Source of the DNA: Candidatus Bathyanammoxibius amoris
GTDB taxonomy: Bacteria; Planctomycetota; Brocadiia; Brocadiales; Bathyanammoxibiaceae
Assembly: GCA_024451685.1 (NCBI GenBank)
Contig: JAMXCW010000003.1
Coordinates: 62,001 to 126,000 of the forward strand
DNA length: 64,000 nucleotides
Direction of reading: 5' to 3'
Both the position numbers and the translations under genes were made by a program. Below, in pieces: positions 56,840 through 61,143 of this stretch; position 1 is the first letter of the stretch, and the number at the start of each line of letters is the position of its first letter. The notes below the pieces were generated by a model, which worked only from the letters and a program-made list of their open reading frames with translations, did not search any database and was not told where the DNA came from.

Positions 56840-57319
56840 ATGAAACGATGCTCTCTTATGACAGTAACTCTGTTGTGCCTGATGGTTTGCTTTCCATCTT
56901 GTGAATGGTCGTGCTACGCGCCAGGCGAAAAACCTTCGGGCGAATACGGAGGCGTCTCTCCATCCGAAGAACGCGAGGCCTTGGAAAAGGCGACCGACAG
57001 TGAACTAAAGGACGTCATGAAGGCATCCGCAAAATATATGAAGAACCTGGAGGCATCGATGGAGAACGGTAACTGGCCTGCCACGAGGGTGTCCGCCAAG
57101 AAACTGGAAGACCTCATCGGAAAGCGCTGCGTGAACCTGTACGTAAAGGTCCATGGACGAGTATCGAGAAAGTTTACCGACATAAGCAAGGACTTCAACG
57201 AGCATGTGCTTAAACTGCTTAACGCCGAGCGGTACAACAAATACGAACTGGCCAGAACCCAGTTCGAAAACATGAAGCTCGACTGCGACAACTGCCATGA
57301 TAAGTTCAGAGAGGAGTGA
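56840..57319 (+). CDS. cytochrome c'-like exported monohaem protein (copy 1)
   Basis: 159 aa. A signal sequence (MTVTLLCLMVCFPSC) may be lipid-anchored at the last Cys. Helical mature part with ELKDVMKASAKYMKNLEASMENGNWPATRVSAKKLEDLIGKRC, then the C-terminal haem site CDNCH (149-153). Four-helix bundle with C-terminal CxxCH is the cytochrome c'/c556 layout, although the length and lack of an N-terminal Met ligand make the subtype uncertain. Paralogous to the next gene. Likely a periplasmic electron or NO carrier. Follows glgC by 31 bp without functional link. Confidence 0.7.
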   Translation: MKRCSLMTVTLLCLMVCFPSCEWSCYAPGEKPSGEYGGVSPSEEREALEKATDSELKDVMKASAKYMKNLEASMENGNWPATRVSAKKLEDLIGKRCVNLYVKVHGRVSRKFTDISKDFNEHVLKLLNAERYNKYELARTQFENMKLDCDNCHDKFREE

Positions 57320-57489
57320 CAGTAGTTTCTCAAACGACGGGCTCCCTGCGGGTCCGTCTAGCGGTCAGAACGCAAGAGGATATCGACGCGGTTTTTTGCC
57401 GGTTGCCGGATTCATAAGGCGCAGGCGGCTTGTGATAAATACCGAGACGACTACACAAAGGAGAGTGGGGCAACCTCCCCCGGAGTAGA

Positions 57490-58065
57490 ATGAAGAAATC
57501 TCTTTATCTTGGTCTGATGCTGCTGTTGTTTATCTCAGTCAACACCGTTTCCTGTGAGAGGGCGGAGGAGGAGCCGGAAGAAGAGACTATGGTGGCGCTC
57601 ATGGAAGAGGAAGAAGAATTCTTCGGAGAAAAAATACCCGCACTTGAAGAGTGGGCGGAGCAGGAATGGGAGGAGAGGGCGCCGGTAGAAGAAGAGGAGG
57701 GGGAAGAGCCCGTAGAGCTTGAGACCCCGGGGGGCCTCAAAGAGGCCATGGCGGCCACCTCGCGCGCCATGAGACGGCTCAGCCGGAGTGTAAAGAAGGA
57801 TAACTGGGAAGGGATAAAGGATTCCGGAAAACAGGTAGAAGACCTGATTGCCGGCCGGTGCGTCACACTGTACTTCAAACAACACCCTTCAGGGGTGCCC
57901 ACGGAATTTATCATCATCGGAGACCGTTTCAGGGCCGCGATACAATCCCTCGTCAGGGGGGCAAAGGGACGTAATTCCGACGACGTGCTTCGCGAGTTCT
58001 TTGTAGTAAAAGGGACCTGCAAGGACTGCCACAAACTCTTCAAAGAGAAGGACGAGGAGGAATAA
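57490..58065 (+). CDS. cytochrome c'-like exported monohaem lipoprotein (copy 2)
   Basis: 191 aa. Signal with lipobox TVSC (Cys22). An acidic, Glu-rich linker (residues 23-75) precedes the helical domain LKEAMAATSRAMRRLSRSVKKDNWEGIKDSGKQVEDLIAGRC, parallel to copy 1, and ends in haem site CKDCH (177-181). The Glu-rich linker is absent from copy 1 and may act as a spacer from the membrane. GGAG precedes the ATG. The 170-bp gap upstream is GC-rich and has a small hairpin (GGGG / CCCC) close to the ribosome binding site. Confidence 0.7.
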   Translation: MKKSLYLGLMLLLFISVNTVSCERAEEEPEEETMVALMEEEEEFFGEKIPALEEWAEQEWEERAPVEEEEGEEPVELETPGGLKEAMAATSRAMRRLSRSVKKDNWEGIKDSGKQVEDLIAGRCVTLYFKQHPSGVPTEFIIIGDRFRAAIQSLVRGAKGRNSDDVLREFFVVKGTCKDCHKLFKEKDEEE

Positions 58066-58390: not shown

Positions 58391-59140
58391 TTAGTCGTCT
58401 GCACTTGTATGTCCCGTACGGCTCAAGTGTATTATCCCATTCATGTTTATCAAATCGATTGGCTTATGTTTTGCAAACTGTTTAACACCTTTCGTAAAAC
58501 CAGAAGTGCAAGCTAATATAGCCCTTTTAGCCTTTGCGTGTTTCATTGCACCGTATAGGTCTCTTACTACAGCAGGGCCAACTGGGTTCTTGTGAACCTT
58601 ACATTGTACAATAACCTTATGCCAACCTTTATGTGCAATAATATCAACCCCTCCATCACCTGAGCCTTTAGCTACTTTTTCAATGTTGTAGCCGTTTCTG
58701 CTCAATACAGATGCAAATTCATGTTCAAACTGTTTACCAGTTAGAGACCCCCAAAATTCAGTCTGTGTCCTAGTGAACCACGCATCAAACTTATCCTTAG
58801 CTTTTTTGTACTCCCTAAATGTCTTAATATGCTTATTGAATAATGGCAGAGTATGATGATAAATGAGTGCGACAAACAATGACACGATAAGCCCACATGA
58901 CGCACCAATTAGAGCCATAAACCCCCCACCAAGTAATGCCATTAATATGTGCCCCGCTTCCACTGCGTGAAAAGGTGTGCCCAAAGGAACTACGAATGTG
59001 AATGCTTGGATTACTCCTAGAACTGCTCCTAGAATTATTACAGTTTTAAAAATCCAATATACAGTTTCTTCTTCATACTTCTTACAGCTACGAATATCCT
59101 CTTTCGTTAGGCCGTAATCTTCTAGTGTTGGTTCTTTCAT
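58391..59140 (-). CDS. membrane-anchored Mrr-type restriction endonuclease
   Basis: 249 aa from the ATG at 59140 (a GTG at 59161 is possible). Two hydrophobic segments near the N-terminus (about 28-50 and 60-92) predict a membrane hairpin. A cytosolic linker and then a PD-(D/E)xK nuclease of the Mrr_cat type follow: GKQFEHEFASVL, GSGDGGVDIIAHKG (catalytic Asp) and VIVQCKVHK (QxK). The usual target is foreign or methylated DNA. AT-rich codon use differs from the surrounding core genes. It is oriented opposite to the pentapeptide gene, with about 220 bp between starts. Confidence 0.82.
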   Translation of the reverse strand: MKEPTLEDYGLTKEDIRSCKKYEEETVYWIFKTVIILGAVLGVIQAFTFVVPLGTPFHAVEAGHILMALLGGGFMALIGASCGLIVSLFVALIYHHTLPLFNKHIKTFREYKKAKDKFDAWFTRTQTEFWGSLTGKQFEHEFASVLSRNGYNIEKVAKGSGDGGVDIIAHKGWHKVIVQCKVHKNPVGPAVVRDLYGAMKHAKAKRAILACTSGFTKGVKQFAKHKPIDLINMNGIIHLSRTGHTSADD

Positions 59141-59202
59141 AATCGTACTCAGTAAGGGCACTAAGCAACAGAATAATAAGGTGTACTTCTTAGGTAGGCT
59201 CC

Positions 59203-59245
59203 TCTAGTGGGGAAATCTACTACTAGCCGGACGCGTTGTCAAGCC
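59203..59245 (+). repeat. left copy of 43-bp flanking direct repeat
   Basis: Gap-free alignment with 60887-60929, 36 of 43 bases identical, ends TCTAGTGGG and TTGTCAAGCC. The pair brackets the pentapeptide gene. Confidence 0.7.
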
Positions 59246-59269
59246 CCCCCTCACAAATGGTCTAGTCTC

Positions 59270-59298
59270 TATACATTCTCCTTATAGCACACTATAAT
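59270..59298 (+). promoter_or_regulatory. promoter-like sequence for the pentapeptide gene
   Basis: TATACA (59270-59275), 17 nt, TATAAT (59293-59298). A perfect -10 and a four-of-six -35. Leader of about 55 nt to the ATG at 59361. Confidence 0.45.
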
Positions 59299-59360
59299 AT
59301 GCCAATCTACCTCAGGTGGACTGACTAATAATCCTTTCGGGTCTTAGAGGGGCAAAGGAC

Positions 59361-60881
59361 ATGGCAGATAATGGGTGCAAATGGGAACCACCTTTTCCCT
59401 GGAGAGATTATGCTAAATGTAGCGAACCACCCCTTCTAAACGACCCCAAGGGCTACTGTCTCCTCCACTCTGAAGACGAGGATAAAGATACTCAAGCATT
59501 CATAAAAAGAGTGAAGGAGAAGATAGAGACTGAAAATAACACAATAGACCTCCGAGGTTGTTTCTTTCCCATAGTTTTTGACTCCTGGCCCTTTAAAAAA
59601 TCAATATTCCCCGAGAAACCTACACTTTTCAACTGGGCAACATTCGCGGAGGGGGTAATTTTAGCCGCAACCACATTCAATGGAGAAACGCACTTTAGCG
59701 GAGCTAAGTTCCTGAAGAAGGCTACGTTCAGAAATGCTATATTTAAAGGAGTGACTGAATTCAGCGATGCCACATTTGAGAAGGGAGCAGATTTCATAAA
59801 TGCTAAGTTCCTGAGTTCTGTGGAGTTCTCTAAAACTACTTTTAAAGGTGAACTAACGAGCTTTAGGGGGGCTGCCTTTGAAGATGTAGACTTTAAGACT
59901 ACACAATTTCTAGCTAAGCAGGTTTCGTTTACCGATACTATCTTTTATGGAAGTACCAATTTTGATAATTCTCATTTCGATAACCAAGTGTATTTTATAC
60001 GAACTACGTTTTATGGAACCCATGAAATAGTCAAATATAAGTTACCGTTTCTAGAATTCCCAGAACCACTCGAAGATAAAATATCTTACCATCATCACAC
60101 TGGTCTTTTCATTTTCAAAGGAGTTATGTCTGGACAAGAAAAGACTCAATTATTAAACCTGTCAGAAGACAAGTTATATGGGAAGACTATAGAGAAGCTT
60201 TCGAACAAGCCTCCAGAAAAACTCCGTAGGTTTTTCTGGGTCGAATTCCCGAGGACGTACAAACAGGCAGTGTTTGCGGATACTGACCTAAGTAAGTCTA
60301 GCTTCCTCAATTCAAACATAGACAAGGTGGACTTCAGGTACTGCAAATTTGTGGAAAATGGAGGAAGGCTAAACGTTTTAAAAGACGAACGTGATGCCGA
60401 TATTGAGGTACAAAAGGATCCTAAAAACAAGAAAGTCAGGGAAAAACAGTATGAGCCGGTACGACGACTCTATTTGGAATTAAAGAAAAACTTTGAAGAC
60501 AAAAAAGACTGGAACAGGGCTGGAGATTTTCACTTTGGGGAGATGGAGTGCGGACGGAAAATGTACGGGTGGTCAATCGTGGAAGGTGTCTTGTTTAACC
60601 TATATTTTTGGGCAAGCGGCTACGGCGAGAGACCACTAAGGGCATTAGGAGTATTTCTAATACTCGTGTTTCTTGTATTCCCGTTGCTTTATTGCCTTTC
60701 GGGGGATGGTTGCTTCTTCCAAAGTATGTGGAACAGCCTAATGGTTACTTCATTTGGTAGGGTTGCTAAGCCAGAAATTACGAGCTATTTGGGGCCAATC
60801 ATTTGGCTGATTGAAATAATAGTTTGTCCCACCCAGTTCGCTCTCTTTGCCCTAGCCCTGAGGAGGAAGGTGAAGAGGTAA
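59361..60881 (+). CDS. pentapeptide-repeat protein with C-terminal two-helix pore domain
   Basis: 506 aa. The N-terminus has a likely zinc knuckle (Cys6, Cys20, Cys33, His36; last part GYCLLHSEDED). Residues about 85-220 are pentapeptide repeats of the A(N/T)F type (ATFAEGVILAATTFNGETHF, then AKF, ATF and so on), which fold as a right-handed beta-helix. A charged region with QYEPVRRLYLELKKNFEDKKDWNRAGDFHFGEME precedes two C-terminal membrane helices around 435-460 and 480-500, with MVTSFGRV between them at the place of a K-channel filter (which normally has TxGxG). Such proteins resemble pentapeptide fusions to Ion_trans_2 domains. AT-rich and flanked by 43-bp repeats, so probably acquired. 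Confidence 0.75.
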   Translation: MADNGCKWEPPFPWRDYAKCSEPPLLNDPKGYCLLHSEDEDKDTQAFIKRVKEKIETENNTIDLRGCFFPIVFDSWPFKKSIFPEKPTLFNWATFAEGVILAATTFNGETHFSGAKFLKKATFRNAIFKGVTEFSDATFEKGADFINAKFLSSVEFSKTTFKGELTSFRGAAFEDVDFKTTQFLAKQVSFTDTIFYGSTNFDNSHFDNQVYFIRTTFYGTHEIVKYKLPFLEFPEPLEDKISYHHHTGLFIFKGVMSGQEKTQLLNLSEDKLYGKTIEKLSNKPPEKLRRFFWVEFPRTYKQAVFADTDLSKSSFLNSNIDKVDFRYCKFVENGGRLNVLKDERDADIEVQKDPKNKKVREKQYEPVRRLYLELKKNFEDKKDWNRAGDFHFGEMECGRKMYGWSIVEGVLFNLYFWASGYGERPLRALGVFLILVFLVFPLLYCLSGDGCFFQSMWNSLMVTSFGRVAKPEITSYLGPIIWLIEIIVCPTQFALFALALRRKVKR

Positions 60882-60886
60882 GATTG

Positions 60887-60929
60887 TCTAGTGGGCAAAT
60901 CTACAACTTGCCAGAAGGCTTGTCAAGCC
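60887..60929 (+). repeat. right copy of 43-bp flanking direct repeat
   Basis: Starts 5 bp after the pentapeptide stop codon. Pair of 59203-59245. Confidence 0.7.
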
Positions 60930-61046
60930 TAATGGCTTTGGTAACCAATAGGTGTCCATGACAACTCAGGATGAACTGTTGACAGTCTGTTGACGGTAAA
61001 ATCTTTTGTTGTTGTCTGCCTAACCCTTTGAGACATAAAGATGTAA

Positions 61047-61143
61047 TGGCGGGAATGTGTGGGAGTCGAACCCACCTATCCGCTTATGAGGCGGACAAAC
61101 CGGATTTGAAGTCCGTCGGGACCACCGGGCCCCATCCATTCCC
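61047..61143 (-). tRNA. selC: tRNA-Sec (anticodon TCA)
   Basis: 97 nt on the minus strand including an encoded CCA. Acceptor GGGAATG pairs with CATTCCC, discriminator G. The D stem is the 6-bp Sec type (GGGGCC / GGTCCC, with one G-U) closed by a 4-nt loop. Anticodon loop CTTCAAA gives anticodon TCA (61107-61109 on plus). The long variable arm is TCCGC / GCGGA, the T arm GTGGG-TTCGACT-CCCAC. The eighth acceptor pair would be G-A, a slight irregularity. It reads UGA as selenocysteine, matching selD at 14843. Its 3' end faces the AT-rich segment. Confidence 0.95.

Follow-up and report, generated by a model that had tools for sequence, protein, structure and literature searches.

DNA recognition by the Mrr restriction enzyme of E. 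coli relies on an N-terminal winged-helix domain, and the beta-helical proteins Qnr and MfpA are soluble gyrase-protection proteins. The Mrr nuclease domain (Mrr_cat, PF04471) also occurs in orphan proteins, such as WP_013283109.1 of the Butyrivibrio plasmid pCY186, and an Mrr-type domain is part of PDC-S02, a PADLOC phage-defence candidate that was derived by 'guilt-by-embedding' and is without experimental validation (PMC10855318).

We analyzed a stretch of 64,000 nucleotides (hereafter the window) from the genome of Candidatus Bathyanammoxibius amoris (2.07 Mb, 26 contigs), in which genes for a membrane-anchored Mrr-type nuclease and a pentapeptide-repeat membrane protein lie close to the tRNA-Sec gene. 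In comparison with E. coli Mrr, the nuclease has two membrane helices where the winged-helix domain would be. It shares the intact D...QxK domain with the orphan Mrr_cat proteins, and several Mrr_cat homologues likewise have a hydrophobic region ahead of the nuclease domain. The Mrr-type domain is common to PDC-S02 as well, although the alignment is limited to model positions 194-305 of 334 and the N-terminal part of PDC-S02 does not align with our protein. The pentapeptide-repeat protein has the beta-helix fold in common with Qnr and MfpA (top Foldseek matches, E ~2e-3), from which it differs by its membrane base and by scores far under the Qnr cut-offs. Streptomyces plasmid proteins (e.g. 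WP_331724264.1) possess the same succession of a Cys/His N-terminus, pentapeptide repeats, a GEME...SGYG motif, two C-terminal helices and a KR end, with ~ 25-45% identity in pieces and with different neighbouring genes. Since the full architecture is common to these plasmid proteins, the protein appears to belong to a wide, uncharacterised family.

The reading that we prefer, with a probability of roughly 77%, is that this part of the window is a recently acquired patch in an intergenic spot of variable content beside selC, and that its two accessory genes are unrelated and transcribed separately. At the level of sequence, it is comparison that shows the acquisition, the separateness and the architecture of the two genes.

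The low-GC segment beside the tRNA-Sec gene

The segment at positions 58391-60890 has a GC content of 0.414, whereas 2.5-kb windows taken elsewhere in the window average 0.529 ± 0.020. Among 55 long ORFs, which have a mean GC of 0.530 (sd 0.034), the two genes of the segment rank lowest, at 0.404 and 0.416, and their GC3 values are 0.34 and 0.44, compared with an ORF mean of 0.62. An intact tRNA-Sec gene (selC; 61047-61143; Rfam RF01852, 70.1 bits) lies on the minus strand, so that its 3' end is directed toward the segment, from whose end it is separated by 165 bp. The AT-rich stretch that the original prediction had placed at the 3' side of tRNA-Sec is thus confirmed, and a deviation is seen in GC and GC3, where it had proposed a check of GC and codon use. 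The Rfam scan of the segment revealed nothing beyond tRNA-Sec, and a terminator-like hairpin 3' of the pentapeptide gene (60975-60997, plus strand) is weak, as matches of this type are no more frequent in the region than in shuffled sequences.

The cytochrome c'-like gene at 57490-58065 and the tRNA-Sec gene are also neighbours in G006, which belongs to the same genus, and in G001 and G008. The gap between them measures 2982 bp here and 238 bp in G001, and is ~ 0.8 kb in G006 and ~ 1.1 kb in G008, each of which holds a different single gene. Neither the nuclease gene nor the pentapeptide gene is present in the corresponding gaps of these three relatives, which is the empty-site comparison that had been suggested, and the low-GC segment between the two flanking genes is confined to this genome; the family offers only 9 genomes for comparison, several of them in fragments. 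The neighbours are kept together in these relatives from three genera, which carry neither gene there, so that a gain of the segment in this lineage is most likely, at a spot whose content varies. The cytochrome c'-like genes adjoining selC form a tandem (56840-58065), and a third copy is located in or near the interval in G001 and G008. The immediate neighbours tested encode a GH57 glucanotransferase-like protein, a histidine kinase and a GlgC-like nucleotidyltransferase, and no strong match to a defence family was found among the ten upstream ORFs tested.

Could the segment be a site-specific integrative element for which selC served as the attachment site and whose integrase has since been lost? 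Such an origin would be in line with the location at the tRNA-Sec 3' end, with the foreign composition and with the varying content of the site among relatives. However, no tRNA-derived att copy was found, the longest word shared with the tRNA 3' half being 7 nt, compared with 8.6 nt in shuffles; the segment contains no integrase, phage gene or mobile-element cargo and stops short of the tRNA; and the inserts at this spot in the relatives are single ordinary genes. We regard this origin as very unlikely. As far as sequence features can tell, the locus resembles a tRNA-targeting island in its absence from the relatives' site and differs from one in that an integrase and a duplicated tRNA 3' end were not found. 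The predicted island holds in a weak sense, as an acquired segment of foreign composition that is missing from this spot in all relatives checked, and the idea of a tRNA integration hotspot gained no positive support; the accompanying remark that integrase and att copy are lacking was accurate.

The nuclease and the pentapeptide-repeat protein

The nuclease ORF (58391-59161, minus strand) offers two starts, GTG at 59161 (256 aa) and ATG at 59140 (249 aa). The latter agrees with the N-terminus of the best homologue, L081 in the planctomycete G320, which is full-length and alike at its N-terminus, and the gene is given here as 58391-59140. The Mrr_cat domain (58424-58744, minus strand) matches PF04471 with an E value of 5.4e-27 and 94.6 bits, against a Pfam cut-off of 21. 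The helix residue E139, the catalytic D166 and Q179-x-K181 are unchanged in 9 homologues. With a domain above cut-off and intact D and QxK residues, the protein is, by these annotation criteria, an Mrr-type PD-(D/E)xK nuclease. No Pfam match was obtained N-terminal to Mrr_cat, where a hydropathy scan instead predicts two membrane helices (residues 33-51 and 75-93; 58862-59044, minus strand), in agreement with the membrane anchoring stated in the original prediction; thus, no N-terminal winged-helix domain of the kind expected of a type IV Mrr restriction enzyme was detected. A peptide-pattern search of viral contigs and genome contigs with the nuclease gave no match.

A single-sequence AlphaFold model of the nuclease (mean pLDDT 61) displays the PD-(D/E)xK order of helices and strands and, at low confidence, long helices at residues 13-53 and 64-131. 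All Foldseek matches of this model were weak, those to Ecl18kI, EcoT38I and AspBHI among them, and the fold searches served as consistency checks only because the models are of low confidence outside the beta-helix of the pentapeptide protein. The likeliest role of this orphan nuclease would be to cut foreign DNA near the inner membrane, in which its two helices would anchor it, and its domain and distribution suggest that it is probably restriction-like at the membrane.

The divergent gene at 59361-60881 (plus strand) encodes the pentapeptide-repeat protein of 506 aa, with a Pentapeptide_3 match (PF13576) at E 2.8e-22 and 79.1 bits (Pfam cut-off 27). Close homologues were found in Planctomycetota MAGs. 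The beta-helix is modelled with a pLDDT of 83-94 at residues 81-190, and the C-terminus is modelled poorly. At the N-terminus, a Cys/His motif (C6, C20, C33 and H36; 59376-59468, plus strand), unchanged in four aligned homologues, forms a possible zinc site. The C-terminal region (60450-60878, plus strand) comprises the GEMEC...SGYGER motif and two membrane helices (residues 428-446 and 480-498), the helix pair that had been noticed earlier, and the protein ends in a basic KR. Many other proteins encoded in the family genomes share a ~ 55-aa segment of it (residues 226-289; 60035-60226) at 37-49% identity, including ~ 10 proteins in G007 and the loci L035, L038, L026, L027 and L135, as an unexplained common module.

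Another question concerns the nature of the C-terminus. In the low-confidence model, it has the order helix, short helix, helix, and its profile matches KcsA colinearly, yet with an E value of only 1.7, which is not significant; the GYG filter is absent, and neither Ion_trans_2 nor another Pfam channel family was matched in the C-termini of the 8 members checked. A significant match to a true K+ channel was thus not obtained, and the C-terminus may form a pore. HalA, a Foldseek match at rank 47 (probability 0.06), was too weak to use, and a literature search on it gave no result. The protein may be pictured as one copy of a multi-paralogue family in which a Cys/His knob and a beta-helix would stand on a two-helix membrane base, and it would probably work independently of the nuclease, in oligomeric form, as a sensor, scaffold or pore. 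A more far-reaching proposal is that the members form an undescribed family, common to planctomycetes and Streptomyces, of gated pores or membrane-disrupting effectors that act in conflict or stress, alone or with varying partners; we consider it rather doubtful.

The surroundings of several homologues were also recorded. In two genera (L043:9264-11260 and L044:4787-6701), the homologue lies near genes that, judged by eye, resemble those for an HK97-type prohead protease and a capsid protein. Locus L120:2115-6448 comprises an Eco57I-type methylase gene (E 1e-30), an ORF of 207 aa with no Pfam match, which is possibly the restriction enzyme partner of the methylase, and then a full-length pentapeptide homologue. 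In G005 (L024:166-2615) and G001 (L042:2179-4976), the homologue is divergent from the same conserved membrane-protein gene, which resembles a cytochrome c biogenesis gene; in these two genomes the copy may thus have been inherited vertically.

Association of the two genes

These descriptions lead to the key question of whether the two genes belong together. The original prediction saw in them a possible undescribed two-gene defence module. As an abortive-infection module, the nuclease would sense or attack phage DNA and the pentapeptide protein would open a killing pore in the membrane. The adjacency of a membrane nuclease and a two-helix membrane protein in an acquired segment is compatible with such a module, as is the nearest PADLOC model to the nuclease, PDC-S02, matched at E 1e-15 over the Mrr part only. 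The distributions of the two genes, however, differ. The nuclease is present in one of the 9 family genomes, with one more marginal match at 30%, and is patchy in the order, where 10 of 59 genomes strongly match the G320 homologue. Pentapeptide relatives occur in 8 of the 9 family genomes, and a single genome often holds several. Among 392 genomes sampled across the phylum, 50 have a nuclease match and 10 a pentapeptide match, and the only one with both is that from which the window was taken.

At the loci that were fetched, no nuclease match was found around pentapeptide genes and no pentapeptide match around nuclease genes, so that the two were never neighbours in any other genome searched, an outcome that the original prediction had itself named as its refutation. 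The pairing is not conserved in these genomes, and the adjacency that would be expected of a two-gene anti-phage module was not seen outside the window. The pentapeptide protein has no PADLOC match and was likewise without a match in a search of viral contigs, and literature searches gave no description of a defence pair of a pentapeptide and an Mrr protein.

The divergent genes also have separate promoter-like sites, each with 10 of 12 consensus matches: TATACA-17-TATAAT at 59270-59298 (plus strand) for the pentapeptide gene and TTGACA-17-TAGATT at 59214-59242 (minus strand) for the nuclease gene. Two observations count against separateness: the divergent intergenic region of 220 bp would permit shared control, and the position of the full-length homologue in L120 directly beside the Eco57I-type methylase gene may indicate an association with restriction genes. 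The abortive-infection module, for which no neighbourhood of defence genes was found among the ORFs tested either, appears highly improbable to us, and we retain the reading of two unrelated accessory genes.

The 54-nt promoter-like element

A feature absent from the original prediction is a 54-nt direct repeat, 80% identical between its copies at 59192-59245 and 60876-60929, which lie on either side of the pentapeptide gene; the end of the second copy coincides with the end of the region then described. The promoter-like site of the nuclease gene is located inside the first copy, which is likely, by prediction, the promoter of that gene. The second copy contains TTGACA-17-TAGATT at 60926-60898 on the minus strand, antisense into the pentapeptide gene, and is followed by no long ORF. 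As a DNA hairpin, copy 1 is no better than shuffles (z 1.35), and copy 2 is weak (z -1.8).

Direct repeats that bound exactly the pentapeptide gene, together with ~ 10 similar copies in other parts of the genome, could point to a mobile cassette that entered beside a separate, older nuclease gene. This reading seems unlikely to us: the other copies are single and in most cases precede unrelated ORFs by 16-130 nt, with promoter-like spacing, and neither a recombinase nor inverted ends were found. For the same spacing and single occurrence upstream of genes, the repeat was rejected as an att site or a transposon end. What is constant among the copies is a TTGACA-17-TAGATT-like core within the consensus TTGACAAyCCTTCCnGCTAGTAGTAGATT, with an invariable 17-nt spacer and conserved sequence downstream. 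The element occurs in the three genomes of this genus and, at up to 3 mismatches, in none of the other genera of the family (reversed control zero).

Copies of the element were identified in loci L003, L005/L014, L007, L004, L009, L118, L119, L002, L008, L142 and L143. The genes below it are accessory, and many are low in GC; they encode the Mrr nuclease, an HSDR_N-like protein, TPR proteins, a lipoprotein and a dodecin-like protein. In L118:308-1108 (minus strand), the same element precedes a gene for a 266-aa HSDR_N_2 protein (E 1e-8; GC 0.44), which is the second nuclease-like gene that carries the promoter-like element of the Mrr gene.

Judged in this way, the patch beside selC seems to be composed of parts of known kinds and gives no evidence for a new system, and a plausible but unsupported candidate for a defence module can be taken off the list. 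Two leads are obtained in its place. One is a widespread family of membrane proteins that combine pentapeptide repeats with two transmembrane helices and whose C-terminal domain has no name; the other is the promoter-like element, specific to the genus, that precedes accessory genes, of which many have a low GC content and two or more are nuclease-like.
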